Shown here in pieces: positions 2,976-32,571 of a stretch of DNA of 64,000 nucleotides (its first letter is position 1; every line of letters starts with the position of its first letter). The position numbers and the translations under genes were made by a program. The stretch is taken from the NCBI GenBank assembly GCA_024693325.1, contig JAILLA010000073.1, positions 40,851 to 104,850 on the forward strand. Direction: 5' to 3'. The stretch is from Solobacterium sp. (lineage in GTDB: Bacteria; Bacillota_I; Bacilli_A; Erysipelotrichales; Erysipelotrichaceae). The notes beneath the pieces were generated by a model. That model was given only the letters and a program-made list of their open reading frames with translations, was not told the origin of the DNA and searched no databases.

Positions 2976-4004
2976 TTATTTCTTGCCCATCAGAAGGCTT
3001 GCAAGATTCATCAGTGTATTGAGATTTCCTGCAGGTGAAGTATTCTGGGCTGTTGTATTGTTTCCGTTCAGGCTGAACACCTGGCCGTAACCGTTGTTCG
3101 CAGGAGCGGCAGCCGGCTGCTGGTTAACAGCGGAAGCTGCTGCAGGCTGGCCTGTCAGCTGTGACATCAGCTGTCCCATCTGCTTGGCATTCAGCGTGAT
3201 ATTCTGGGAAGCCTGTGCCTGTGTGATCTGGACATTGCCGCTGCCGAGCATGGACATGATCTGGGCGAGCTGGAGTCCTGTCAGGGTAACCGTCTGCTTG
3301 GAAGCTGTATAGACCTTGCCGCCAAGCTGGTTCAGCATCTGCTTCAGCTGTGATCCGTTCAGTGTGACGGACTGTTTTGCCTGTGCCTGCGTGATCTTGA
3401 GCTGTTCTTTTGTGAACATCTGCATGATCTGTGCCAGCTGCATGCCGCTCAGTGTAACAGTTGCATTAGCGGATGTTGTCTGTGTCTGCGGCTGCTGGGG
3501 CTGTGTGCCGAACAGATTGCCGAGCAGTGAGCCTGTGCTGTTCTGCTGGGGCTGCTGTGCCTGCTGGGGCTGCGCGCCGCCGCCGAGCAGTGCGGACAGC
3601 AGTCCGCCGGTAGGGCTGCTCTGCTGTGCTGATGTGTTATTGCCGGATGTTGACTGCAGCATGTTCATGACTGCGAGCAGGTCGTTGGCGTCCAGCTTGC
3701 CGTCAAGCAGGGCACCGATGCCGGATGCTCTTGTGACGCCGTCGGCTTTGCTGCTGAAGCCGCCTGTCAGCTTCATCAGGTTTTCCGCATCGATCTGTCC
3801 TTCTGCGCCGAGGAACAGCTTCATGATGTTGTTTTCGGAGACCTGCTTTGTGATCGCGGATACTTCGGAATCACTCAGTTTTTCGTCTGCCAGGATGCCT
3901 CTGACGACGCCTTCCGTGCCGTCTTTCAGCATGTCGTTCATTTTTGAAGGATCGGATGCCAGGGTATTCAGGACCTTGTTGACATTATTATTTTTTTCAC
4001 TCAT
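2976..4004 (-). CDS. Gln/Asn-rich repeat protein of unknown function
   Basis: 342-aa ORF, no signal peptide, central PQQ-rich low complexity, C-terminal repeats VTLxGxQLxQIM..QITQAQAxQ. Confidence 0.75.
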   Translation of the reverse strand: MSEKNNNVNKVLNTLASDPSKMNDMLKDGTEGVVRGILADEKLSDSEVSAITKQVSENNIMKLFLGAEGQIDAENLMKLTGGFSSKADGVTRASGIGALLDGKLDANDLLAVMNMLQSTSGNNTSAQQSSPTGGLLSALLGGGAQPQQAQQPQQNSTGSLLGNLFGTQPQQPQTQTTSANATVTLSGMQLAQIMQMFTKEQLKITQAQAKQSVTLNGSQLKQMLNQLGGKVYTASKQTVTLTGLQLAQIMSMLGSGNVQITQAQASQNITLNAKQMGQLMSQLTGQPAAASAVNQQPAAAPANNGYGQVFSLNGNNTTAQNTSPAGNLNTLMNLASLLMGKK

Positions 4005-4128
4005 TGGTAACTACCTCATTTCTAACAATATTTTGACATTCAAAGGCATGAAAGTACAGCAAATATTCAGCGGATTTCGATGCTTCCCTTTATAATAATG
4101 AACATATAGAAAGCAAGAGGATTGAATT

Positions 4129-6384
4129 ATGACTGATATGCTCGCCAGATACAAAGCTGCTGAAAAGCTTGTTCCCTGGAATACGAAACATGCCGTCCTG
4201 AACGGCAAGCCTGCAGCGAAACCGCTGGACGAAACACATTTTTACTGGGCAGAGGAAGTACGTGAAGGTGAAGATGTTTATTCCGTATTCCGCAAAGTCA
4301 GTACCATTGACGGAACAGAGGAAGATCTCTTTGATCACGCAAAGCTGTGCGGCCTGCTGTCAACGGACCATATTCCTTTCACTTCCTGCAAAGTGAAAGA
4401 CGGGAAGATGGAATTCACATATGAAGACTTTGATTATACATACAGCCTGGATGAAGGGACCCTTGAAAAGACGGGATTCCATCAGGAACGCGCAGTCTCC
4501 GTTTCACCGGACCGGACAAAGGAGATCTTTGTCAGGGATCACAACATGTGGATCCGCGACTGTCAGGACGGAAAGGAAACACAGCTGACATATGACGGCG
4601 TCAAAGACTTCGAATACGGCAAATGCGCGGAATACAGCGGGTATATCACGGACCGTGTCAAGGGAAAGCCGGAAGTGCCCGGTGTGCTGTGGGCACCCGA
4701 TTCAAAGCATTTCCTGACGTTCAAGCTCGATCAGAGGACGGTACCGGAGCTGTTTATCATACAGTCCTACGATGAGGAGACAAGGGAAAGCATCCGTCCC
4801 CGCCTGCATACATATAAGTGCTCATTCCCGGAGGATAAAGAGATCCCGCTTGCGTACTACTGCATGGGCGATGCCGAGGCATGCACAGTTACCATGCTTG
4901 ACATGGAACCGCAGCCTGCCGGAGGACCGCTGTTCGGGGAACGCTACGGAATGGCAAAATGGCTGGATGACAGCAGTGCCGTCTATACGACGCTTGTCCG
5001 CAGAGGCTGCAAATCCGCCGCGTTCGTCCTGATGACGGCAGACGGGAATGTCAGAACGCTGCTGGAGGAAGCCAGCGATACAGCGCTGAACATTCGGACA
5101 CACGGAAACCTGGACGGCTTCAATGATTACTGCGCAAGCAACTTCCTGTCTCAGGACAAGAAGACGCTTGTATGGCAGAGCGAACGTGACGATTTCGCGA
5201 GACTGTTCCGCTATGACGGAGAAACAGGAGAGCTGCTGAATGCCATGACGCCGGCAGACTGCAGCGTCGGTGAACTGATCTCCTATGACGATACGCATGT
5301 TTATTTCTATGCAAGCAACCTTTCCTGCACAAGCGATCCGTATTACCAGCTTGTCTGCAGGACAGCATATGACGGAAGCGGCTTTGAAGTCCTGACACCG
5401 GAAGACGGCATGCACAGGTGCACGATCATCAACGATATGATCATCGATACATGGAGCAGGGTCGACTGCCCGCCTGTAACCAACCTCAGGAATAAAGACG
5501 GCACGCTGGTCAGGGAACTCGTTTCTGCTGATATCAGCGACCTGCTTGCCAGAGGCTATATCATGCCGGAACGCTTCACGGTCACCGCAAGCGACGAAAA
5601 GACGACGCTGTACGGCATTCTGATCAGACCGGCAGACTTCGATGAAACAAAGAGTTATCCGTTCATTGACTATATTTACGGCGGCATGCAGTGCTACAAC
5701 GTTCCGAAAGCATTTGCTTATGAAGGCGCGATCGACGGCAGGGAAATGATGGGCGGCCTGGAAGAACTGGCACAGCTCGGCTTTGCGGGCATCATCCTGG
5801 ACGGTCTGGGAACACCGGGCAGAGGAAAGAAACTGCACAATATCAGCTATGAGAACATCCACGGCTGCGCGGGACTGAAGGACCATGTCACATCACTCCC
5901 CGAACTGAAGGAGAAATTCCCGTTCCTGGATCTCGACAGGGCAGGCATGTGGGGCAACTCCGGCGGCGGCTGCGCAACATCCAGGGCTATGCTGGAATAT
6001 CCCGACACATATAAAGTCGGTGTATCTTCTGCCGGCAACCATGACCAGCGTATGTACAACAACCAGTGGACGGAAACATATTACGGTCTGTACAACAAAG
6101 AGATCTACCTGAAGGGCGACAATACGGCACTGGCAAAGAACCTGAAGGGCCATCTGTACATCGTACACGGGGCAATGGATGACAATGTCGCGATGTCTCA
6201 GTCGATCCGTCTGATCGATGCGCTGATCAATGAGGACAAGGACTTTGACTTCCTGATCCTGCCGCGTACCAACCACAACGTACCGGCAAACCCGTACTTT
6301 ATCCGCCGCAAGATGGACTACTTTGTCAGATATCTGCTGGAAGAAGAAGTACCTTCATACAGATTCGTCATGCCGGAGGACTGA
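4129..6384 (+). CDS. S9 family peptidase (dipeptidyl-peptidase IV-like)
   Basis: DPPIV N-terminal propeller plus catalytic GNSGGG, late D and H (HGAMDDNV, PRTNHN). Confidence 0.9.
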   Translation: MTDMLARYKAAEKLVPWNTKHAVLNGKPAAKPLDETHFYWAEEVREGEDVYSVFRKVSTIDGTEEDLFDHAKLCGLLSTDHIPFTSCKVKDGKMEFTYEDFDYTYSLDEGTLEKTGFHQERAVSVSPDRTKEIFVRDHNMWIRDCQDGKETQLTYDGVKDFEYGKCAEYSGYITDRVKGKPEVPGVLWAPDSKHFLTFKLDQRTVPELFIIQSYDEETRESIRPRLHTYKCSFPEDKEIPLAYYCMGDAEACTVTMLDMEPQPAGGPLFGERYGMAKWLDDSSAVYTTLVRRGCKSAAFVLMTADGNVRTLLEEASDTALNIRTHGNLDGFNDYCASNFLSQDKKTLVWQSERDDFARLFRYDGETGELLNAMTPADCSVGELISYDDTHVYFYASNLSCTSDPYYQLVCRTAYDGSGFEVLTPEDGMHRCTIINDMIIDTWSRVDCPPVTNLRNKDGTLVRELVSADISDLLARGYIMPERFTVTASDEKTTLYGILIRPADFDETKSYPFIDYIYGGMQCYNVPKAFAYEGAIDGREMMGGLEELAQLGFAGIILDGLGTPGRGKKLHNISYENIHGCAGLKDHVTSLPELKEKFPFLDLDRAGMWGNSGGGCATSRAMLEYPDTYKVGVSSAGNHDQRMYNNQWTETYYGLYNKEIYLKGDNTALAKNLKGHLYIVHGAMDDNVAMSQSIRLIDALINEDKDFDFLILPRTNHNVPANPYFIRRKMDYFVRYLLEEEVPSYRFVMPED

Positions 6385-19017: not shown

Positions 19018-20154
19018 TCAGTTATTCCAGATCAGGCTGTCTTCCAGACCGGACGTATAGGCGACCATGAGTCCGCCTGCTTTCCGGCAGTATTCCGTGT
19101 CCGGCGCCTTGTCCGGGGACATGATCCATATGACTTCCAGGCTGACATTGTATGCTTTCCGGTAATCCTCCACAAGCTTCATTCCGTCTTCATAGCTCAT
19201 CGTAAACAGCGTGGTTGAGAGCGCGTCGGCAGCTGCCGAATCAGGCGTGATGATGGACACGGACCGGAAGTATGATGCGGGATACATCGTGTCGGGATCG
19301 ATGATGTGGTGATACTTTTCCCCATCTGTCCCGACAAAGTAGCGTTCATAGTCACCCGAGGTAACGAACGAACATGCGCCATTCTGCTTTACGATGATCA
19401 GGCTTCCCTCTGCATCGGGATTCTGGATGCCGATACGCCATTCCTGCCCGTTGTATTTCTGCCCCAGTGTACGGGTGTTTCCGCCGGCATTGACAGCGCC
19501 GTTTGTGATGCCCAGTTCATTCAGCTTCTGCGCGATCTTTTCCGTTGCGAATCCTTTGGCGATGCCGCCGACATCCAGGGAGATATCCGGATCTGTGATG
19601 AATACCGTATTGTCTGCTTCATTGATCTCGACATATTCCCAGCCTTTGCGGGAAGAAGCTTCCTCCAGCTCGGAAAGCTCCGGGAGAGCTGCGGGTTCAC
19701 CCGCCAGGTTCGTTTCGATCCCGGCATCGCGGTATTCATGCCACACCTTCAGGAGGGAACCGATCGTAATATCGAACTTCCCGTCTGACAGTTCATAGTA
19801 ATCTTTCGCTTCCAGCAGCATCTCGATCAGATCCGGATCGACCTTGACAGGCTGAACGCCGGCATTCTCGTTGATCGTATACATGTTGTTCATGCCTTCA
19901 TAGCTGTTGTAGATATCAAACAGATCGTTGTAATAGGTAAACAGAGAGACAGCCTGATTGAAATGCGTGTCGAATATGTCCTTTGTTTCGGTGGCTTCCT
20001 GATAGGTGAAGACCGTATCAAAACCTGCGTCCAGCGACAGGTTGTTGTAGTTATGCAGTTCCGGAGCAGTGTTTTCTGACTGCCCGGGTTCCGCGGAGCA
20101 TCCTGCGCAGGTAAGCGTCAGGGATGCCGCCAGTAATAACTTGACTTTGTTCAT
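19018..20154 (-). CDS. apbE: FAD:protein FMN transferase (lipoprotein)
   Basis: Lipobox LTCAGC; MYTINENAGVQPVKVDPDLIEMLLEAKDYYELSDGKFDITIGSLLKVW; DVGGIAKGFATEKI; NAGGNTRTLG. Confidence 0.92.
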   Translation of the reverse strand: MNKVKLLLAASLTLTCAGCSAEPGQSENTAPELHNYNNLSLDAGFDTVFTYQEATETKDIFDTHFNQAVSLFTYYNDLFDIYNSYEGMNNMYTINENAGVQPVKVDPDLIEMLLEAKDYYELSDGKFDITIGSLLKVWHEYRDAGIETNLAGEPAALPELSELEEASSRKGWEYVEINEADNTVFITDPDISLDVGGIAKGFATEKIAQKLNELGITNGAVNAGGNTRTLGQKYNGQEWRIGIQNPDAEGSLIIVKQNGACSFVTSGDYERYFVGTDGEKYHHIIDPDTMYPASYFRSVSIITPDSAAADALSTTLFTMSYEDGMKLVEDYRKAYNVSLEVIWIMSPDKAPDTEYCRKAGGLMVAYTSGLEDSLIWNN

Positions 20155-20246
20155 AATCGCGATTATAGCACAAAGCACTCGTTTTCAAGTGTTCAGTATG
20201 TTTGTTTGATGATATAATTTCAATGTTATAAGGAAGGGATGAAACT

Positions 20247-21536
20247 ATGTCATTTTTAACAGGACCGATGCATCATCACCTGGAAGGACATAAGGATCTG
20301 ACTGCTCATAAAGATGTACTGATTCTGGAAGAGCCGGATGATCTTTATATTCCGCTGGTCAACGGCAGGGCATCATGCACGCCGCTGGTTCAGCCTGGTG
20401 ATGAAGTTAAGGTAGGAACAAAACTCGGGGAACCTGTTGATCACTGGTATGTACCTGTCTTTTCACCGGTTTCCGGAACTGTGGTCGGCGTTGAAAAACG
20501 TATGTCCGCAATTCTGAAGCCGACAGATCATCTGCATATCAAAAACGATCATAAGGGGACATCTGTACGCGCTTTTGAGCCGTTTGACTATGAGAGCGCA
20601 ACTAGGGAAGAAGTTCTTGAGTTCACGAAGAATGCCGGAATGCTGGGACTCGGCGGTGCCGGATTCCCTACATTCATGAAGTATTCCAAGCCGGAAAACA
20701 TTGATCTGTTTATCATCAACGCAGTTGAATGTGAGCCTTATCTGACTGCTGACTACAGAAACTCAATGGAGAATGCTTCCCTGATGAAAGCCGGTGCGCT
20801 TGCACTGCTGAAACTTTCCACAGCACCGAAAGGTGCGATCGCCGTCAAAGAGGACAAACACGATCTGATCGATGTCCTGAACAAAACATTTGCCGGCACT
20901 CCGATCGAAGTAAAGACTGTCAAGGATATCTATCCTGCAGGCTGGGAACGCACGCTTGTATATCTCCTGACCGGCAGACGCTATGACAGGCTGCCTGCTG
21001 AAGCCGGCTGCATTCTGAACAATGTCAGCACATGTATCGCTCTGGGCGACGCGATGATCAACGGAAAGCCGATCACGCACAAATACGTCACTGTATCCGG
21101 TGACGGCGTGAAGGATCCGCACAACGTATACTGCCCGGTGGGAACACCTTCCGCAACGCTGATCAAAGCCTGCGGCGGATATACTGCTGAAGACTGCCTG
21201 CTGATCGCAGGCGGTCCGATGATGGGACGCGCGATCCCGAATGAAGTATTCGTTATCGGACCTGCCAACAACGGTCTGACCGTACTTCAGAACAAGGAAT
21301 ACAAGACAGTCAAATGTCTGAGATGCGGCAGATGCACGGAAACATGCCCGTCCGGACTGGAACCTGTCCGTATCAACCAGTATGAAAAGATCAAAGACCT
21401 GGACGCTCTGAAGAAGCTGGACATCATGTCCTGCATCGAGTGCGGTATGTGCACTTATATCTGTCCGTCCAACATCGATGTTACTGAAGGTATCCGCAGA
21501 GCGAAGAGATATCTGACTCTGCAGGCTAAGAAGTAA
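20247..21536 (+). CDS. rnfC: Electron transport complex subunit RnfC
   Basis: GLGGAGFPTFMK, CLRCGRCTETCP and CIECGMCTYICP Fe-S motifs. Confidence 0.93.
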   Translation: MSFLTGPMHHHLEGHKDLTAHKDVLILEEPDDLYIPLVNGRASCTPLVQPGDEVKVGTKLGEPVDHWYVPVFSPVSGTVVGVEKRMSAILKPTDHLHIKNDHKGTSVRAFEPFDYESATREEVLEFTKNAGMLGLGGAGFPTFMKYSKPENIDLFIINAVECEPYLTADYRNSMENASLMKAGALALLKLSTAPKGAIAVKEDKHDLIDVLNKTFAGTPIEVKTVKDIYPAGWERTLVYLLTGRRYDRLPAEAGCILNNVSTCIALGDAMINGKPITHKYVTVSGDGVKDPHNVYCPVGTPSATLIKACGGYTAEDCLLIAGGPMMGRAIPNEVFVIGPANNGLTVLQNKEYKTVKCLRCGRCTETCPSGLEPVRINQYEKIKDLDALKKLDIMSCIECGMCTYICPSNIDVTEGIRRAKRYLTLQAKK

Positions 21537-21550
21537 GGAGGAGGGTGAAT

Positions 21551-23020
21551 ATGAAACTGACATTTAAACCGTCACCGAACTACCGCTCTTCCCAGACTAC
21601 GACCGGGATCATGTTTGATCTCACGGTTTGCCTGCTTGCGGTAACTGTGTTCTCGGTACTTTACTACGGCGTCAATTACGGCGCTTCCTACGGACTCAGA
21701 GTTGTGATCATGATGGTTTCCGCTGTCATCACATCCCTGATCGTTGACGCGATCTGGGCAAAGATCCAGAAGATCGACATCAAGGAAGGCATCCTGAGTT
21801 CCTATTCCTGGATCACTGCAATGATCCTGACACTGATCATCCAGATCGATGTCAGTCCTTATGCGCTCTGTGTTGCGACGGTCATCGCGATCGTATTCGG
21901 CAAGCTGGTATTCGGCGGCTTCGGTCAGAATATCTTCAATCCGGCTGCGTTCGGCGCCGCTGTCATCATGAGCTCATTCGCTGCGACAAAGTCAGCTGAT
22001 TTTGTAACAGCTGCTACTCCGACCACGACAGCTGCTGCGTACGGCTGGATCATGAACACGGAAACATTCGGTTCATATGTCACGCAGTACGGCGGACTCG
22101 GAAAGATGCTGCTGGGCTGGTACCCGAGCTCACTGGGTTCCACAAGCGCGGTCCTCATCGCACTGTGCGGTGTCTATCTTGTCTGGAGAAAAGACATTGA
22201 CTGGCGTCTGCCTGTCTGCTACATCGGCAGCGTATTCCTGATCACCACGATCATCGGCCTCATCAAGGGTGCCGGTCTGTGGTACGGTGTGTTCAATGTT
22301 CTCGCCGGCGGCGTCATGCTGGGCGGCGTGTTCATGGTCACCGATCCTGTAACAAATCCTGTTTCAATCCCCGGACGTATCATATTCGCGGTGGGATGCG
22401 CAGCACTCACTGTGATCATTCGTCTCAAAGCTAATTTCCCGGACGGCGTTCTGTTCTCGATCCTTCTGATGAACATGATGACTCCGGCGATCGATAAAAT
22501 GTTCGACGGCAACCAGATCAAAAACGCTGCTGATTTCCGCAATAAGACGATCATCTGCAGCGCACTGCTGGCACTTGTTTCCGTTCTGGTAGGCTCGACC
22601 GTACAGGCTAAGGAAGTCGTACCGGAACCGGCTGCTCCCGCTGCAGTCGAAGGTTCGCTCGGTTCGATCGACTTCAGCGCAAACAATGTTGAAGTTACCG
22701 AAGTTTCCAACGACGGCAAGACAGCTGTATACAGCTGCTCGGCAGACGGATTCGGTCTTATGAACAACATGGGCGCTGAGTACGGCAGAAACGAAGTGAC
22801 AGTCACAGTCGATGTCGCAAAGGGAAGCGTCGTCAGCGTAGCACTCGATAACTTCGGCGATACCGCAGGGATCGGTGATACAGCAACTTCCGATGATGCG
22901 CTTGCAGGCTATGCCGGCAAGACACTGAATGACAGTGTTGACACGGTAGCAGGCGCAACATTCACAAGCGGCTCGGTTGCCGCAATGGTACAGGCAGCTC
23001 TTGAAGCTGCGGCGAAGTAA
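21551..23020 (+). CDS. rnfD: RnfD with C-terminal fused FMN-binding domain
   Basis: RnfD-like membrane body (TAATPT; GGVFMVTDPVTNPVSIPGRIIF) followed by an FMN-binding-like domain ending DSVDTVAGATFTSGSVAAMVQAAL. Confidence 0.9.
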   Translation: MKLTFKPSPNYRSSQTTTGIMFDLTVCLLAVTVFSVLYYGVNYGASYGLRVVIMMVSAVITSLIVDAIWAKIQKIDIKEGILSSYSWITAMILTLIIQIDVSPYALCVATVIAIVFGKLVFGGFGQNIFNPAAFGAAVIMSSFAATKSADFVTAATPTTTAAAYGWIMNTETFGSYVTQYGGLGKMLLGWYPSSLGSTSAVLIALCGVYLVWRKDIDWRLPVCYIGSVFLITTIIGLIKGAGLWYGVFNVLAGGVMLGGVFMVTDPVTNPVSIPGRIIFAVGCAALTVIIRLKANFPDGVLFSILLMNMMTPAIDKMFDGNQIKNAADFRNKTIICSALLALVSVLVGSTVQAKEVVPEPAAPAAVEGSLGSIDFSANNVEVTEVSNDGKTAVYSCSADGFGLMNNMGAEYGRNEVTVTVDVAKGSVVSVALDNFGDTAGIGDTATSDDALAGYAGKTLNDSVDTVAGATFTSGSVAAMVQAALEAAAK

Positions 23021-23034
23021 GGGGGATCCGGAAT

Positions 23035-25284
23035 ATGAGTAAAGATTCCACAGCTTACAAAGCGGTATTACTTGCAATACTGTGTGCGGTGTGCGGACTG
23101 CTGCTGTCAGGCATCAACGCCCTGACTGCCCCGATCATCGCGAAAAACCAGCTGGCGACAGTTATGGCAAGTCTGGAACAGATCTATCCGGGCGGAGAAT
23201 TCACGGAAGCTGAATTCGACGATCCGAGCGGACTGATCCAAGGTGTCTACAAGTCACCCGGCAATGGTACGATCTATAAGATCCACAATGTCGGCTACAA
23301 CTCCAACGGATTCACATTCATGGTTGCCTTCAATGAAGACGGCTCAGTCGGCGGATTCCTCCCGATCGAGCACAATGAAACAGACGGCTTCGGCGCAAGA
23401 TGCTTCCAGGATGACTACACAGCTACGATCAACGGACTGACATCCTCCGATCCTGTTCCGCTGCTGTCAGGCGCTACCCTGACATCCACAGCGATCCAGC
23501 AGGGTATCGATGCCGCAAAGGCACTGTTCAATGCGGATGCGGGAATCTCCTATGATCCCAATGCTGTCGCAGAACCGTCTGCACCTGAAGCTCCGAAGAT
23601 CTCATTCAGTGATGACTTCGCCAATACAGAGCCTGAGGCAGAAGAAGTTTCCAATGACGGAACAACAGCTGTCTACTCCGTAAAGGCAGGCGGCTTCAGC
23701 TTCCTGAATGAAAAAGGAAACAAGAACGAAGCAGAGATCACACTCGATGTACCGAGCGGCACAGTCAAGTCTGTCAAGGTCACGAAGTTCTCCGATACTC
23801 CGGGTATCGGTGACAACGCAACATCTGACAGCGCCCTGAAGGCTTATGAAGGCCTGAAGGCAGGCGACAGTGTTGACGGTGTATCCGGTGCGACATTCAC
23901 TTCCAAATCCATCGCTGCCATGGTCAAAAGCGCTCTTGACAAGCTGGCAGGCGGCGGAACGTCCGCTGCAGAAAAGCCTGCAGAGGAAAAACCTGCTGAA
24001 GAAACAGCAGCTGTTGCAAAATATCCCGAGACTGAACCGGAAGTGGAAGAAGTTTCCAATGACGGAACAACAGCGGTCTACCGTGTCAAAACAGGCGGCT
24101 TCAGCTTCCTGAATGAAAACGGCGACAAGAATGAAGCAGAGATCACGATCGATGTTCCGTCCGGAACAGTCAAGTCGATCACGGTCGATACTTTCTCTGA
24201 TACAGCAGGTATCGGTGACAAGGCAACGGCAGAGGATTACCTCAAAAAGTTTATCGGTGTCAGCGATCCCGAAACAGTAGACAGTGTATCCGGCGCGACA
24301 TTCACATCCAATTCCGTTAAATCAATGATCCAGTCAGTTCTGGATAAACTGAAGGGCCTGAACGCAGGTACATCTGCGGCAGAACCTGAAGCAGCTGAAA
24401 CAACAGCTCCCGTCGAAACAGCTTCTGTATCCAAGTATGCAGAAACAAAGCCGGAAGCTGAGACAGTATCCAATGACGGTTCGACCGCTAAGTTCCGCAC
24501 AAAGTCCGGAGGCTTCAGCTTCCTGAACGAAAACGGCGACAAGAACGAAGCAGAGGTCGAAGTCGATGTTCCGACAGGAAAAGTCAAGTCAGTCAAGGTT
24601 ACAAAATTCTCCGATACTCCTGGTATCGGCGACAAGGCGACAGATGACTCATGGCTGAGCAAATTCGTCGGCGTCAGCGATCCGGATGAAGTTGACAACG
24701 TATCCGGCGCAACATTCACATCCAAATCCATCAAGGGCATGATCCAGTCAGCTCTTGATCAGGTAAAGAGTTCCGATCCGGCAGCTGCTGCACCTGCAGC
24801 ATCCGCTCCCGATCAGACAGCAGCTGTACCTGAAGAAACAAAAGCTCCTGAAGCATCTGCTGCTCCTGAAACAACAGACAAGGGTGACAGCCAGCAGACA
24901 GTATCCAGATTCAAGGAAACAGAACCGGAACTGGAAGAAGTTTCCAATGACGGCAAAACAGCTGTTTACCGCATCAAATCCGGAGGCTTCAGCTTCCTGA
25001 ACGAAAAGGGTGAAAAGAACGAAGGCGAGATCGAGATCGACGTTCCCACCCGTACCGTCAAGTCCATCAAGATCACAAAGTTCTCCGATACAGCAGGTAT
25101 CGGCGACAAGGCAACTGCCGATGATTTCCTCAGCAAGTTCGCAGGCAAAAAGGATGCAGATGATGTTGACGGCGTATCCGGCGCAACATTTACATCAAAC
25201 TCCGTCAAAGCAATGATCCAGTCTTCCATCGATAAGACAGAAGCACCGGCTGCTGCTTTGCCGAATACTGAGGCAGGAAAGTGA
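23035..25284 (+). CDS. rnfG: RnfG with four additional tandem FMN-binding domains
   Basis: Canonical RnfG N-terminus (LLSGATLTSTAIQQGID) then four EEVSNDG...GGFSFLNE...DVPSGTVKS...GIGDKAT...VSGATFTS repeats. Confidence 0.92.
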   Translation: MSKDSTAYKAVLLAILCAVCGLLLSGINALTAPIIAKNQLATVMASLEQIYPGGEFTEAEFDDPSGLIQGVYKSPGNGTIYKIHNVGYNSNGFTFMVAFNEDGSVGGFLPIEHNETDGFGARCFQDDYTATINGLTSSDPVPLLSGATLTSTAIQQGIDAAKALFNADAGISYDPNAVAEPSAPEAPKISFSDDFANTEPEAEEVSNDGTTAVYSVKAGGFSFLNEKGNKNEAEITLDVPSGTVKSVKVTKFSDTPGIGDNATSDSALKAYEGLKAGDSVDGVSGATFTSKSIAAMVKSALDKLAGGGTSAAEKPAEEKPAEETAAVAKYPETEPEVEEVSNDGTTAVYRVKTGGFSFLNENGDKNEAEITIDVPSGTVKSITVDTFSDTAGIGDKATAEDYLKKFIGVSDPETVDSVSGATFTSNSVKSMIQSVLDKLKGLNAGTSAAEPEAAETTAPVETASVSKYAETKPEAETVSNDGSTAKFRTKSGGFSFLNENGDKNEAEVEVDVPTGKVKSVKVTKFSDTPGIGDKATDDSWLSKFVGVSDPDEVDNVSGATFTSKSIKGMIQSALDQVKSSDPAAAAPAASAPDQTAAVPEETKAPEASAAPETTDKGDSQQTVSRFKETEPELEEVSNDGKTAVYRIKSGGFSFLNEKGEKNEGEIEIDVPTRTVKSIKITKFSDTAGIGDKATADDFLSKFAGKKDADDVDGVSGATFTSNSVKAMIQSSIDKTEAPAAALPNTEAGK
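23620..25240 (+). repeat. Coding tandem repeat (4 units, roughly 400-480 bp) encoding FMN-binding domains
   Basis: SGATFTS codons at about 23884, 24289, 24703 and 25177; recurrent near-identical DNA such as gtttccaatgacgg and ggcttcagcttcctgaa. Confidence 0.9.
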
Positions 25285-25294
25285 GGAGACGATC

Positions 25295-26038
25295 ATGAGT
25301 GTAAAAGAAGAGAAAAAAAGTTTCTTCTCGGAGATGCTCTTAAACAATCCGGTCTTCGGACTTTATCTGGGAATCTGCTCAACTCTGGCGATTTCCACCA
25401 GTCTGAACAACGCATTGGGTATGGGCGTTTCAGTAATCTTTGTCCTGGTGCTTTCCAATATCCTGGTATCACTGATCGCCAGGATCACACCGGATGAGAT
25501 CCATATTCCGGTTTACATCGTTATCATCGCTACGCTGGTCACTCTGGTAGGCATGCTGCTGCAGGCATATACGCCTGAACTGTATTCCACACTGGGTGCT
25601 TACGTAGACCTGATCGTCGTAAACTGCATTATCCTTGGACGTGCTGAAGCATTCGCCTGCAAGAACGGCGTAGGAGCTTCCGCTAAAGACGGTCTGATGA
25701 TGGGTCTGTCCTATACATTCAGCCTGATGGCGATCTCCCTGATCCGTCAGATCCTCGGAACAGGTATTCTGTCAATGTCCAACCCGTTTACAAATGCCGA
25801 GATCTTCGCGCTCCGTCTGATCCCCAGCGGATTCGAGATCCCCATCTTCAAGTCCCAGACAGGTGCGTTCCTGACATTCGCGATCCTCGCCGCTGCTGTA
25901 GCAGCTTATAAGAAGAGTATCGACGATAAGGCAGCGCAGGCTGAGAAAGAAGCGAAAGCGGCTGCTGCAAAGGCTAAGGCTGAAGCAGCGAAAGCAGCGA
26001 AGGCTGCAGGTGCTGCCGCAAAGGAGGCTAAAGCATGA
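25295..26038 (+). CDS. rnfE: RnfE with Ala/Lys/Glu-rich C-terminal extension
   Basis: RnfE/NqrD-like membrane protein (NPVFGLYLGICSTLAISTSLNNALGMG); tail QAEKEAKAAAAKAKAEAAKAAKAAGAAAKEAKA. Confidence 0.92.
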   Translation: MSVKEEKKSFFSEMLLNNPVFGLYLGICSTLAISTSLNNALGMGVSVIFVLVLSNILVSLIARITPDEIHIPVYIVIIATLVTLVGMLLQAYTPELYSTLGAYVDLIVVNCIILGRAEAFACKNGVGASAKDGLMMGLSYTFSLMAISLIRQILGTGILSMSNPFTNAEIFALRLIPSGFEIPIFKSQTGAFLTFAILAAAVAAYKKSIDDKAAQAEKEAKAAAAKAKAEAAKAAKAAGAAAKEAKA

Positions 26039-26616
26039 GTCTGTCCAGTATATTGACGCTGATCATCGGCGGCATTCTGATCAACAACGTCGTATTGACC
26101 AAGTTCCTCGGAATGTGCCCGTTCATGGGTGTATCAACAAAACTCAGTTCTGCCATCGGCATGGGCCTGGCTGTTACATTCGTTATCTTCGGTTCCTCCG
26201 TGCTGTCATGGCTGCTGTATTACTATGTTCTGGATCCGCTGAACATCGAATACATGGAACTGATCACATTCATCCTGCTGATCGCGGCATTTGTCCAGTT
26301 CGTTGAGATGTTCGTCAAAAAGAACTCTCCTTCACTGTATAAATCGCTTGGTATCTTCCTCCCTCTGATCACAACAAACTGCGTAGTTCTCTTTGTTGCT
26401 CAGGACAATATCACACAGGGCTACAACCTGATCGAAACGATGGTAAATTCCATCGCAGTACCGCTCGGCTTCATGCTGATGCTGGTGATCTTCGCAACGA
26501 TCCGTGAACGTCTGAATGGTGCAGATGTTCCTGAAGCGTTTAAGGGCAACCCGATCGCGTTCATCGTTGCAGCGATCATGGCTGTTGCGTTCACCGCATT
26601 TGCGGGACTGGTATAA
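26035..26616 (+). CDS. rnfA: Electron transport complex subunit RnfA
   Basis: NNVVLTKFLGMCPFMGVSTKLSSAIGMGLAVTFV; overlaps rnfE stop. Confidence 0.94.
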   Translation: MSLSSILTLIIGGILINNVVLTKFLGMCPFMGVSTKLSSAIGMGLAVTFVIFGSSVLSWLLYYYVLDPLNIEYMELITFILLIAAFVQFVEMFVKKNSPSLYKSLGIFLPLITTNCVVLFVAQDNITQGYNLIETMVNSIAVPLGFMLMLVIFATIRERLNGADVPEAFKGNPIAFIVAAIMAVAFTAFAGLV

Positions 26617-26622
26617 GATCCG

Positions 26623-26820
26623 ATGAATTTCATATATGCAATACTGATCGGTGCCGCACTTGGTGCACTGAACATCTTTCTCATGAAGAAGAACAGGGAG
26701 ACACCGGTTCCCGAAGGCTGTGAAAACCTGACACCGGACTGCTCTGCCTGCGGTATTGCGGACTGTGCATTGCGTGAACACTATTTGAATCAGAAGGGAG
26801 AAAAAGATCAAAATGCTTAA
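26623..26820 (+). CDS. Small single-TM Cys-rich protein embedded in the rnf operon
   Basis: 65 aa: MNFIYAILIGAALGALNIFLMKKNRETPVPEGCENLTPDCSACGIADCALREHY...; overlaps the next ORF. Confidence 0.75.
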   Translation: MNFIYAILIGAALGALNIFLMKKNRETPVPEGCENLTPDCSACGIADCALREHYLNQKGEKDQNA

Positions 26821-27091
26821 AGCTGTATTGATGATGCTGGTTCTCGGCGGACTGTGCGGCGGACTGCTCGGCATCGCTTCCGTAAAGTTCCATGTGGAAG
26901 AAGATCACAGAGCTGAAGAAATTCTTGCTATGCTCCCCGGATATAACTGCGGCGGCTGCGGATATCCCGGCTGTGCAGGTATGGCTGCGGCAATTGCGGA
27001 CGGTTCAGGAAATGTCATGAACTGCAAGCCCAGCAAACCGGAAGCGAAGGAAAAGATCAAACAGTATCTGGCAGAGAATCCTGCTGCATAA
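26813..27091 (+). CDS. rnfB: Short RnfB: membrane anchor plus single 4Fe-4S domain, no ferredoxin domains
   Basis: 92 aa: hydrophobic N-terminus and LPGYNCGGCGYPGCAGMAAAIADGSGNVMNCKP; stop followed by terminator. Confidence 0.85.
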   Translation: MLKAVLMMLVLGGLCGGLLGIASVKFHVEEDHRAEEILAMLPGYNCGGCGYPGCAGMAAAIADGSGNVMNCKPSKPEAKEKIKQYLAENPAA

Positions 27092-27100
27092 TACCGGAAC

Positions 27101-27136
27101 AAACTGCAGACCTCACAAAGGTTTGCAGTTTTTTTC
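27101..27136 (+). terminator. Rho-independent terminator of the rnf operon
   Basis: AAACTGCAGACC TCACAAA GGTTTGCAGTTTTTTT. Confidence 0.85.
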
Positions 27137-27203
27137 GTTTCCCGGAAGTGTTCAGACGAAATACACACAAATTCCGATGAATTTATGGTATTCTTTTGAC
27201 ACT

Positions 27204-28787
27204 ATGAGAAATTACATCAAACGATTCAGATACAGCCTGTGTGTACTGGCTGGCGCAATATTCTTCACTTCAGGGATCACCGCCAGAGCGGAACTGATCC
27301 CCAATTCTTTCGACGAAACGTCAAGATCGCATGATCTGAGAAGAAACGTTCCTGTTGCGATCAATGTCTACGCGAAAAACGGAACTGTTCCTCAGGTCGT
27401 TCATGAAGAAGGCGAGCTGAATGGCATCGCGTTTGACGTGCTGCGTGTAGACCCGTCTGAGGATACGTTCATCCAGGTGGATTACAGTCCGTCCGCGCAG
27501 CTGCTTTACACATTGTATGACCATGATCTTGTCAACAGCGGGTATACGCGGATCGGCGGCATCAACGCAAGCTTCTTTTCCGGCGGCGGATGTCCTGCCG
27601 GGGCAGTCAGGATAGATGACCAATGGCAGTACTATGGTGATATGGAACTGTCTCCTTCTTATGGAAACGGGTATGCGACAGCGTATTTCAACAATACGGA
27701 TATGGAGATCAAGTATCACGGCTGGTCCGGAAGCGCATGGATCCCGTATGATGACGGGATCTGGAACGGCGAGCAGACCGGTGTGCATGCCTACGGGATC
27801 AGTTCAAAGTTCGCGCTGTCAGGTTCCTATACATATTTTGTCAACGGTATTCAGACAGACCTGACAACAGGAGGGACCGGCCGCTATCAGACGACCAGGG
27901 CTGTCAGCCTGCTGGCACAGCGCGCTGACAAGCAGTATCTGCTGCTGAATTTCTATGGACGTATTTCCGACTGGGATATTATTGAATATCTACGCTCAGA
28001 GGGTGTAACGGACGCGATCAAATTTGATGGCGGCGGTTCTACCCAGATGGTGTATGAAGATACACTGGTGAACCTTCCTTATGTGAATTCCGGATACAGT
28101 GAAAAGGTCAACGACAAACCGCTGTTCGGATGGGGAGCTGTTTCCATGGGTTATCCCAAGATGGAAGAACCTGTTTATGAACGGGTGACGCTTGATGTGA
28201 AGTCAAGTGACACGGTACTCTTTGAGGAATCAGTCCCGGTCGGCGCGACGCTTACGATCATGGATGAAACAGGAAACATCTATCTGGACCATGTGAAATT
28301 CCTGCGTGAAATGCATGTTTCGCTGACGCCGACGTCTTCCGTTGCAAAATCAGGCTCACTTGATCACGACACGCTCTTTTACCAGGACCAGGAATTCGGC
28401 ACAGCAAAGACGGTACTGCGAACAGGATCGGAAACAGATGTCGTGCTGGTCGTGGTAGGTGACTATGAAATACCCGAACTTGATCTGTTTACTGCATCAG
28501 CAGTATCCGGTGAGGATACCGTCTGGACATATACGGGACAGACTCCGGTAGAACTGACGATATGTGATGAAACAGGAACACCGGTCAGTTCCGGGACTGT
28601 CGACTACGATACAACAGTTGAACTGACGCATCCCGAAGTGGAAGGCATGGAATTTACCGGCTGGCAGGTCGGAGGCGATCTGCTCAATATCAGGATCGAA
28701 CCTGTATATGAGAAGGCAGAGGAACCGGGCGTCATGGACAGGATCAGCGGATTCATTGGTAATCTGCTGCCTGATAACGAAGAATAA
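27204..28787 (+). CDS. Exported phosphodiester glycosidase family (NAGPA-like) protein
   Basis: Signal peptide; INASFFSGGGCPAGAVRIDD; YLRSEGVTDAIKFDGGGSTQMVY. Confidence 0.85.
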   Translation: MRNYIKRFRYSLCVLAGAIFFTSGITARAELIPNSFDETSRSHDLRRNVPVAINVYAKNGTVPQVVHEEGELNGIAFDVLRVDPSEDTFIQVDYSPSAQLLYTLYDHDLVNSGYTRIGGINASFFSGGGCPAGAVRIDDQWQYYGDMELSPSYGNGYATAYFNNTDMEIKYHGWSGSAWIPYDDGIWNGEQTGVHAYGISSKFALSGSYTYFVNGIQTDLTTGGTGRYQTTRAVSLLAQRADKQYLLLNFYGRISDWDIIEYLRSEGVTDAIKFDGGGSTQMVYEDTLVNLPYVNSGYSEKVNDKPLFGWGAVSMGYPKMEEPVYERVTLDVKSSDTVLFEESVPVGATLTIMDETGNIYLDHVKFLREMHVSLTPTSSVAKSGSLDHDTLFYQDQEFGTAKTVLRTGSETDVVLVVVGDYEIPELDLFTASAVSGEDTVWTYTGQTPVELTICDETGTPVSSGTVDYDTTVELTHPEVEGMEFTGWQVGGDLLNIRIEPVYEKAEEPGVMDRISGFIGNLLPDNEE

Positions 28788-29699: not shown

Positions 29700-29972
29700 A
29701 AACTTGTTTTATAAGCTGAGAAGAGAAGAGTACCCTGACGGAAACCATTCCAGAGAGTCCCGGAAGCTGAAAAGGGACAGGCGGAGATCAGGCGAACATG
29801 GTCTTGGAGCTGCAGGTCCGACATGTAGGATCTGCCGGGAGTGCCCGTTACAGCAATAGAGTATTTCTGAGCTGTTCAGCGTACTTGAAGAGGAGATGAT
29901 CGTGAGGTCATTTTGAACTAAGGTGGTAACGCGTATGACTACGCCCTTATGATAAGGGGCGTAGTTTTTGTT
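29700..29972 (+). promoter_or_regulatory. T-box riboswitch (likely methionine-specific) upstream of metQNI
   Basis: T-box core TGAACTAAGGTGGTAACGCG (29914-29933) followed by terminator ACGCCCTTATGATAAGGGGCGTAGTTTTTG; AACATGG specifier candidate with ATG at 29798-29800. Confidence 0.9.
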
Positions 29973-30026: not shown

Positions 30027-30884
30027 ATGAAAAAAGCAATCAGAACATTAACCGCAGCATTCCTTGCAGCAGCACTTGCAGGATGCGCAGGCGGATCATC
30101 AGCTTCAGGTACACCTGCTGAAGACAAAACCATCACAGTCGGTGCTACACCGGTACCGCACGCAGAAATTCTGAATGATATTCTGAAGGATGTCCTGGCA
30201 AAAGACGGCTGGACACTGGAAGTGACTGTCTTCAATGACTATGTACAGCCCAACACGGCTGTTGAAGAAGGCGAACTGGATGCCAATTATTTCCAGACAC
30301 TCGGATACATGAACGGTGAGAATCAGGACAGGGGACTTCATCTTGTTGCTGTAGCAGGCGTTCATATTGAACCGATGGGACTCTATTCCGAAAAGATCAC
30401 AAGCCTGTCCGACCTGGCAGACGGTGCTGAGATCGCTGTTCCGAATGATAAGGACAACGAATCACGCGCGCTTTCCCTGCTTGTCGCAAAGGGACTGCTG
30501 AATGACCCGGGTACGGAAGTACTGACGGAAACAGACTTCAACGGCAACGCTGATACGAACCCGCATGATTATAAGATCACTCCGATCGAAGCGGCATCAC
30601 TCCCCAGAACACTGGCTGATGTTGACGGAGCAGTCATCAACGGCAACTATGCGCTGGAAGCAGATCTGCCGGCAACGCACCCCGCACTGTTCATCGAGGA
30701 ATTCGACGCTGATACGACAGTACGCCGTACAAACTGGATCGTTGTCAAGGAAGGCAATGAGAACTCCGAAAAGATCCAGGCACTGTGCAAGGCGATCCAG
30801 TCTGAAAAAGTACAGAAGTTTATCGACGAAACATACAAGGGTGCAGTGATCACTTCCTTCCTTGGAGCTGACGCTGCCAAGTAA
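30027..30884 (+). CDS. metQ: Methionine ABC transporter substrate-binding lipoprotein (MetQ/NlpA)
   Basis: Lipobox ALAGC; TVGATPVPHAEILNDI; NYFQTLGYM. Confidence 0.92.
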   Translation: MKKAIRTLTAAFLAAALAGCAGGSSASGTPAEDKTITVGATPVPHAEILNDILKDVLAKDGWTLEVTVFNDYVQPNTAVEEGELDANYFQTLGYMNGENQDRGLHLVAVAGVHIEPMGLYSEKITSLSDLADGAEIAVPNDKDNESRALSLLVAKGLLNDPGTEVLTETDFNGNADTNPHDYKITPIEAASLPRTLADVDGAVINGNYALEADLPATHPALFIEEFDADTTVRRTNWIVVKEGNENSEKIQALCKAIQSEKVQKFIDETYKGAVITSFLGADAAK

Positions 30885-30965
30885 GTAAAAAACAACAGAT
30901 TAACCGCCAGCAGCACTGGTACTTGCCGGTGCTGTTGTCTTCATGAAGAATTACAGGAGCTGAAC

Positions 30966-31934
30966 ATGGTAGAAATCGCAAATGTCAATAAAAGTTTTGG
31001 TGATCTGAAGGTACTGCAGGGGATCAATATCCATATCAATGATCATGAGATCTACGGGATCATCGGTCAGAGCGGTGCCGGCAAGTCCACGCTTCTCAGA
31101 TGCATCAACGGCCTGGAGTCATATGATTCCGGGGATATCATCGTGGATGGAGTAAAAGTGAATATCCATGACAAGAACCAGCTTCGTCAGCTCCAGAAAA
31201 ACATGGGAATGATCTTTCAGAACTTCAATCTGCTGAGCAGGCTGAATGTCTATGACAATGTTGCGCTCCCTATGAAGTTCTGGGGGATGAAGACAAACAC
31301 TCCCGAAGCCAGGGAGAAGATCCTCGGTCTTCTGAGACTGGTCGGTCTGGAAGATAAAAAGGACGCAAGACCGAGAGAACTCTCGGGCGGACAGATGCAG
31401 AGAGTTGCCATTGCCAGGGCACTTGTCCTCGATCCGAAGATCCTGCTCTGTGATGAAGCAACGTCCGCACTGGATCCGGGCATTACAAAAGAGATCCTGG
31501 CACTGCTGCAGAAGATCAATGATGAGATGGGAATCACGATCATAGTTGTAACGCATCAGATGGAAGTCGTGAAACAGATCTGTCAGCGTGTCTCCTACAT
31601 CAAGGGAGGCAGAGTGCTGGCAGAGGGCAAACCGGAAGACCTGTTTGTCAGGCCGAACAAGGATATCAAGGGCTTCCTTCAGGAAAACAGCGACCTGCTT
31701 CCGAAGGAAGGGGTCAACATCCAGATGTTCTTCACGGATGAGAGCTCTGATGAGCCTGTGATCACGGGAATGGCAAGAAACCTCGGCATCGATTTCAGCA
31801 TCTGCTGGGGCAAGCTTGAAGATTTCCGCTCCAATGTATTCGGAAGCCTTGTCATCAACGTAAAGCAGGAAGACCAGCAGAAGGTATGTGATTACCTTGA
31901 CCAGGCAAAGGTCGTATGGGAGGTACTGGAATAA
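30966..31934 (+). CDS. metN: Methionine ABC transporter ATP-binding protein with NIL domain
   Basis: Walker A GQSGAGKSTL, signature LSGGQMQRVAIARAL, C-terminal NIL-like domain. Confidence 0.93.
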   Translation: MVEIANVNKSFGDLKVLQGINIHINDHEIYGIIGQSGAGKSTLLRCINGLESYDSGDIIVDGVKVNIHDKNQLRQLQKNMGMIFQNFNLLSRLNVYDNVALPMKFWGMKTNTPEAREKILGLLRLVGLEDKKDARPRELSGGQMQRVAIARALVLDPKILLCDEATSALDPGITKEILALLQKINDEMGITIIVVTHQMEVVKQICQRVSYIKGGRVLAEGKPEDLFVRPNKDIKGFLQENSDLLPKEGVNIQMFFTDESSDEPVITGMARNLGIDFSICWGKLEDFRSNVFGSLVINVKQEDQQKVCDYLDQAKVVWEVLE

Positions 31935-31935
31935 T

Positions 31936-32571
31936 ATGATGGATATTATCATGAAAGCTACGACGGAAACACTTTACATGGTGTTCTGGTCGACACTGTT
32001 TGCGGTGATCATCGGATTTGTTCCGGCACTGATCCTGACACTGACCGCACCGGACGGACTGCGTCCCAACAAGCCGGTCTATGAAGTGCTGAGCTTTATC
32101 GTCAATACATTCAGAAGCTTCCCGTTCATTATCCTGATGGTCATCGTCATTCCCGTGACCCGTGCCATTGTCGGCAAGGCGATCGGAACGACGGCGGCGA
32201 TCGTTCCCCTGACCATCACGGCTGTTCCGTTCATTGCCCGTATATTTGAGAACGCGCTGCGGGAAACAGATCCGGGTGTTATCGAGGCAGCCCGTTCATT
32301 CGGCGCTTCGGACACGCAGATCCTGTTCCGTGTCTACATCAAGGAATCCATTCCGCGAATGCTGAACGGCATCATCCTGCTGATCATCAACCTGGTCGGC
32401 TGTTCCGCAATGGGCGGCGCGATCGGTGCCGGAGGACTCGGCGACATCGCGATCAGATACGGCTATCAGATGTACAGACTTGATTACCTGACTGCCTGCT
32501 GCATCATCCTGATCATATTCGTACAGCTGGTACAGTCCATCGGCAACGCGCTCTATAAAAAAATCTCATAA
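31936..32571 (+). CDS. metI: Methionine ABC transporter permease
   Basis: TVYMVFWSTLFAVIIGF-like N-terminus; EAARSFGASDTQILFRVYIKESIP EAA motif. Confidence 0.92.
   Translation: MMDIIMKATTETLYMVFWSTLFAVIIGFVPALILTLTAPDGLRPNKPVYEVLSFIVNTFRSFPFIILMVIVIPVTRAIVGKAIGTTAAIVPLTITAVPFIARIFENALRETDPGVIEAARSFGASDTQILFRVYIKESIPRMLNGIILLIINLVGCSAMGGAIGAGGLGDIAIRYGYQMYRLDYLTACCIILIIFVQLVQSIGNALYKKIS

Follow-up and report, generated by a model that had tools for sequence, protein, structure and literature searches.

FMN-based extracellular electron transfer in Listeria (Ndh2, EetAB, PplA, FmnB), in which Ndh2 and a quinone supply the electrons, employs an FMN_bind lipoprotein as carrier. EetB is the FAD exporter in this system, and eetB is often found alongside Rnf (PMC9973259). 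A closer precedent for the locus considered here comes from Meheust et al. (2021, eLife; PMC8238504): there, some RNF clusters encode multi-flavinylated RnfGs, which likely provide a second electron path, proposed to lead outward; the example with extra features is an RnfG from Christensenellales that has multihaem domains. SaFMN3 and CbFMN4 (PMC10339131; 8p2a, 8p2b), which are stand-alone secreted proteins and not Rnf subunits, also have FMN_bind domains in tandem, with DxxSGAT-like motifs and with flexible linkers of small residues; both are flavinylated by ApbE, and SaFMN3 has a single potential near -184 mV. In the Rnf structures solved for C. tetanomorphum (7zc6) and A. woodii (9eri), RnfG and RnfD carry one covalent FMN each and RnfB is long, with a ferredoxin domain (PMC12174285), while RnfD ends about 10-20 residues past its core, with no extra transmembrane (TM) helix and no tail.

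The window, by which is meant the whole 64,000-nucleotide stretch of Solobacterium sp. DNA that was analysed, contains an rnf operon in the order apbE (divergent), rnfC, rnfD, rnfG, rnfE, rnfA, a 65-aa ORF and rnfB (Table 1). The genes for RnfC, D, G, E, A and B thus lie in one operon and encode the respective family domains, a six-subunit set shared with the 7zc6 and 9eri complexes, as are the core folds of RnfG and RnfD. The five subunits other than RnfB agree with the family definition; RnfB, with its single FeS domain, departs from the canonical form that has a multi-cluster ferredoxin-type domain.

Table 1. Features of the rnf region, with positions in the window and, for the RnfG domains, the coordinates from the genome search
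Feature	Position	Strand	Description	Genome search
apbE, FMN transferase	19018-20178	-	Pfam ApbE E=1.5e-73; lipobox LTCAGC	
rnfC	20247-21536	+	RnfC_N, Complex1_51K, SLBB and 4Fe-4S domains	
rnfD	21545-23020	+	491 aa; NQR2_RnfD_RnfE membrane domain followed by an extra TM helix and, at the C-terminus, an FMN_bind tail	
Extra RnfD TM helix	22526-22597	+	residues 328-351, past the end of solved RnfD chains	
RnfD FMN_bind tail domain	22793-23005	+	residues 417-487, VAGATFTS, Thr472	
rnfG	23035-25284	+	749 aa; TM helix at the N-terminus, then the canonical and four further FMN_bind domains	
rnfG FMN_bind domain 1, canonical	23308-23517	+	LSGATLTS, predicted FMN Thr148	C65:64158-64367
rnfG FMN_bind domain 2	23734-23940	+	VSGATFTS, Thr287	C65:64584-64790
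rnfG FMN_bind domain 3	24136-24342	+	VSGATFTS, Thr422	C65:64986-65192
rnfG FMN_bind domain 4	24550-24759	+	VSGATFTS, Thr560	C65:65400-65609
rnfG FMN_bind domain 5	25027-25230	+	VSGATFTS, Thr718	C65:65877-66080
rnfE	25295-26038	+	Rnf-Nqr E=2.7e-55	
rnfA	26035-26616	+	Rnf-Nqr E=8.5e-57	
65-aa membrane protein, four Cys	26623-26820	+	between rnfA and rnfB	
rnfB, short form	26813-27091	+	92 aa: TM helix and one 4-Cys FeS domain	

Five distinct stretches of RnfG match Pfam FMN_bind (PF04205; E=1.3e-57), each scoring 38-53 bits in the genome search against a curated Pfam cut-off of 22. This search recovers the canonical LSGATLTS site and all four VSGATFTS units that an earlier note on this DNA had read on RnfG. 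The SGAT motifs start at residue 145 in the canonical domain and at residues 284, 419, 557 and 715 in the others, a spacing of 135-158 aa, from which it follows that the units are domains of about 100 aa, as the note had proposed, joined by linkers of 31-54 aa. With two or more FMN_bind domains that bear [S/T]GA[S/T]-like motifs, RnfG is a predicted member of the multi-flavinylated proteins; as an architecture it is not new, since the 2021 article already describes more than one FMN_bind domain on RnfG inside an rnf operon (PMC8238504). The divergent apbE does adjoin the operon, but it borders rnfC and not rnfG itself. The flavinylation motif is kept in all six FMN_bind domains (five in RnfG, one in the RnfD tail), and a DTxGIGD pocket region is common to the five tail domains (four and one, respectively). 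One FMN per motif threonine would give RnfG five covalent flavins. The single N-terminal TM helix, the homology to RnfG and the lipobox on ApbE together predict that RnfG is extracytosolic.

An AlphaFold2 model of RnfG, based on a 32-sequence alignment, contains five folded domains with pLDDT mostly 80-90. Its closest solved relatives are the RnfG chains 7zc6_G and 9eri_G, and Foldseek matched the model to RnfG, NqrC and CbFMN4 domain 1 (8p2b, TM-score 0.75 by target). The modelled repeats have an RnfG/NqrC-like fold and share it with the SaFMN3 and CbFMN4 domains; the repeats of SaFMN3 are 84-94% identical, whereas those of the window RnfG are about 64-65% identical to the first repeat. The note's further idea of a flavin "wire" is not supported as stated. 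In the monomer model the domains are separate, the linkers at residues 307-328, 443-465 and 581-629 have pLDDT below 50 and pTM is 0.32, which speaks against a rigid monomer; a rigid RnfG wire is not supported on present evidence. Proline, alanine, glutamate, threonine, serine and glycine make up 59-84% of the linker residues. Because the linkers are disordered in the model, contact would be made through diffusion of tethered domains and not along a fixed chain of cofactors.

RnfG is not the only subunit with a tail. The Pfam search found a C-terminal FMN_bind domain on RnfD as well, which the earlier account lacked. An added hydrophobic helix precedes the position of the tail in the RnfD model, followed by a linker and an FMN_bind fold of moderate confidence, and such a helix is present in all 43 of 43 family RnfDs tested, whether tailed or tail-less. 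The canonical C-terminus of RnfD lies on the cytosolic side in Rnf/Nqr structures, so the added helix is predicted to bring the tail across to the outer side of the membrane. The solved chain 7zc6_D, of 310 residues, aligns up to residue 318 of the window RnfD. The canonical FMN site of RnfD is Thr158 by homology, a threonine that is invariant in the RnfDs compared, and together with the RnfD tail (Thr472) and the five RnfG sites it brings the predicted number of covalent FMNs to seven per Rnf complex. An apparent giant RnfD of 871 aa in another genome (G029) proved to contain a run of masked N and is no true fusion.

The window RnfB aligns only to about residues 2-90 of RnfB models that are 190-292 residues long. 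Short RnfBs of about 90-150 aa recur across the family, and ORFs of ~90-130 aa with the RnfB FeS domain are common throughout the class, so that the short form marks an Rnf subtype. Given the recurrence of an RnfB that lacks the ferredoxin domain, ferredoxin may dock directly at the proximal cluster. Reports of short RnfB were not found in the main texts searched. The small membrane protein encoded between rnfA and rnfB has no Pfam or NCBIfam match; in relatives its position and motif are conserved at ~54-68 aa, with the consensus KTPVPEGCENLKxxCxGC...C, and it was not found in G023, whose RnfB is long (270 aa). It is a candidate for a further, as yet unnamed subunit of Rnf that holds an Fe-S site. 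Directly downstream of rnfB (27123-28787) is a gene for a NAGPA-like phosphodiester glycosidase with a signal-peptide-like N-terminus, and a T-box leader (Rfam RF00230) at 29709-29951 precedes genes for an apparent substrate-binding lipoprotein and ABC transporter (30027-32571). Apart from this T-box, the Rfam matches in the window are limited to three tRNAs; no match falls at the operon, and regulation of rnf by a nearby RNA was rejected.

A survey of FMN_bind domains, covering 80 named loci and mostly one genome per genus of Erysipelotrichaceae, placed the five-domain form, the largest RnfG encountered, also in two near-identical relatives (MAGs L059 and L060, of goat and cattle gut origin), and found four FMN_bind domains in L061. 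Position by position, the tail domains of the window RnfG have their nearest relatives in L059/L060. Between pairs of the four repeats dS is 0.7-1.3, which makes them old copies and, together with their occurrence in independent MAGs, rules out an assembly artefact or a recent duplication. Whole-gene dN/dS of rnfG is 0.04-0.11 against L060 and L059, and that of the tail domains against L061 is about 0.2; by these comparisons the repeats are kept by purifying selection. A rival account takes the repeats for un- or partly flavinylated relics of duplication, and motifs are indeed degenerate in some relatives: 32 of 119 RnfD tail domains there have no clean motif, many reading TGST or SSAT. With six intact sites here, dN/dS of 0.04-0.2 and copy number kept in three MAGs, this account is very improbable; moreover, upon co-expression with ApbE, SaFMN3 is fully flavinylated and CbFMN4 domain 1 bears FMN (PMC10339131).

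Within Erysipelotrichaceae, tails occur on RnfD (0-3 domains), on RnfG (0-4 extra domains) and, in two genomes, on RnfE, where an added TM helix is likewise followed by a C-terminal FMN_bind domain (L161 in G025 and L199 in G119). A three-domain RnfG is present in Holdemania, a culturable relative (loci L114 and L116). In a tree of FMN_bind domains, which is weak because the domains are short, most tail domains group with a tail from another genome that sits on the same subunit; a minority, 9 RnfD and 9 RnfG tail domains whose closest relative of all is in another genome, are nearest to the other subunit's tail. This pattern is consistent with occasional exchange of tail domains between RnfD and RnfG. 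Tails resembling those of Erysipelotrichaceae are also seen on RnfD and RnfG of Youngiibacter fragilis (L128), a member of Clostridiaceae, and this suggests horizontal transfer of its rnf operon.

Genomes with larger tails tend to encode more flavin reductases, a trend that weakens after correction for phylogeny. Across 43 genera the Spearman correlation is 0.63, with reductase counts as lower bounds, up to 8 candidates being scored per genome; after allowing for genome size, the partial correlation is 0.67. Of the 18 genera with at least two extra domains, 11 had two or more detected reductases; of the 25 below that size, one did (Fisher p=5e-5; the thresholds of 1 and 2 in this table were the analyst's choice). 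Phylogenetic independent contrasts, computed on the tree of Rnf proteins, gave r=0.42 and p=0.002, but a sign-flip test on the contrasts gave only p=0.054. In addition, tails are nearly absent from genomes without other FMN_bind proteins. Neither this near-absence nor the link to reductases is predicted if the extra domains act as a flavin capacitor, a structural spacer, an electron buffer for the Na+/H+ cycle or protection against oxidants, with no dedicated acceptor. Such roles would fit the flexible tail linkers and the behaviour of SaFMN3, whose domains share one potential (-184 mV), react with O2 and show no directionality according to the authors (PMC10339131), but overall they are rather improbable.

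Candidate surface partners for the tails are encoded in the genome. It has seven proteins that combine a lipobox with FMN_bind and FAD_binding_2 domains, the reductases C26, C65:22640 and C37 among them, of which the one scanned against NCBIfam (C26) falls in flavocytochrome c/fumarate-reductase-like families; there are also two ApbEs, an EetAB-like pair and a 116-aa FMN_bind lipoprotein. A second flavinylation cluster (L013) comprises a 339-aa FMN_bind lipoprotein and a divergent second apbE (5073-6092 and 3780-4958), the lipoprotein sitting between rhodanese-like proteins and the apbE. Elsewhere (L202, G000:C12:35650-35826, within a larger ORF) a DUF4405-like membrane domain, scoring below the Pfam cut-off, is joined to apparent SUMF1-like and Flavodoxin_4-like regions and adjoins a flavodoxin-like lipoprotein; it may constitute a second transmembrane electron route. 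FMN_bind lipoproteins, ApbE maturation and, as predicted genes, FAD export by EetB are features in common with the Listeria system (PMC9973259). A family search of the genome, which is 92% complete so that absence is not certain, detected no UbiA, hence no sign of quinone synthesis, and no NapH-type Fer4_5. Unlike in Listeria, then, Rnf is the candidate electron source, and EetAB was rejected in this role given the FAD export described for EetB (PMC9973259) and the missing UbiA. With a single PF03116 protein, and thus one Rnf, and in view of these same considerations, Rnf is the leading candidate for the delivery of electrons to flavins on the outside.

The acceptors of the Rnf tails are most likely the lipoprotein flavin reductases of the same genome, a partner that the earlier note, as with the RnfD tail, had not included. 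It is unlikely that the tails instead feed other extracytosolic acceptors, such as ferric iron, small FMN_bind lipoproteins or exogenous shuttles, the correlation then reflecting a general flavinylated lifestyle. In 13 of the 43 genera one RnfD tail domain is the sole tail and at most one reductase was detected, so that lone tails show no tie to reductases; the 116-aa lipoprotein and the 339-aa one beside the second apbE could be served in this way; and extracytosolic flavins reduce iron in other systems (PMC8238504). Against this, the relation of tail size to reductase number persists when genome size is corrected for and, in weaker form, when phylogeny is, and no iron-transport context was seen adjoining the operon.

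We judge it moderately probable that the tails of this conserved multi-flavin Rnf serve as a tethered flavin shuttle towards reductases at the surface. Rnf would be a ferredoxin/NAD oxidoreductase and ion pump with flexible flavinylated tails, four extra domains on RnfG and one on RnfD. In the course that we infer for the flavinylation of each threonine and for the flow, direction and acceptors of electrons, the secreted lipoprotein ApbE would place FMN, derived from exported FAD, on the threonine of each motif. Electrons from ferredoxin or NADH would pass through Rnf to the outside FMNs of RnfG and RnfD, from which they would either return to the cytosol, as in canonical Rnf, or move to the tail domains. 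These would swing on their Pro/Ala/Glu/Thr-rich linkers and hand electrons to the fumarate-reductase-like FMN_bind and FAD_binding_2 lipoproteins at the cell surface, making Rnf a quinone-independent source of respiratory electrons. That a branch leads outward from Rnf, as the earlier note supposed, is likely; the tandem domains on an Rnf subunit and an ApbE adjoining the operon are supported as well.

What appears to be new is the spread of tails over several Rnf subunits and the link to the number of surface reductases. The 2021 main text mentions no tails on RnfD or RnfE that follow an extra TM helix, and no correlation with the number of reductases (PMC8238504); in the main texts searched, no report of these tails, of the added helix or of reductase co-variation was found. 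A wider reading is more tentative, its chances being a little under even: Rnf would be the main quinone-free respiratory hub of Erysipelotrichaceae, its movable tails coupling cytosolic NADH and ferredoxin to surface lipoprotein reductases, with tails gained repeatedly on RnfG, RnfD or RnfE, in the latter two through an added TM helix, and with their length scaling with the reductase repertoire. If a flavin-tailed Rnf supplies the surface flavin reductases of quinone-less Gram-positive gut anaerobes with electrons, a classic ion pump would double as a respiratory electron exporter; the natural series of extra domains, running from 0 to 5 across three subunits, offers a comparative system in which to test this.
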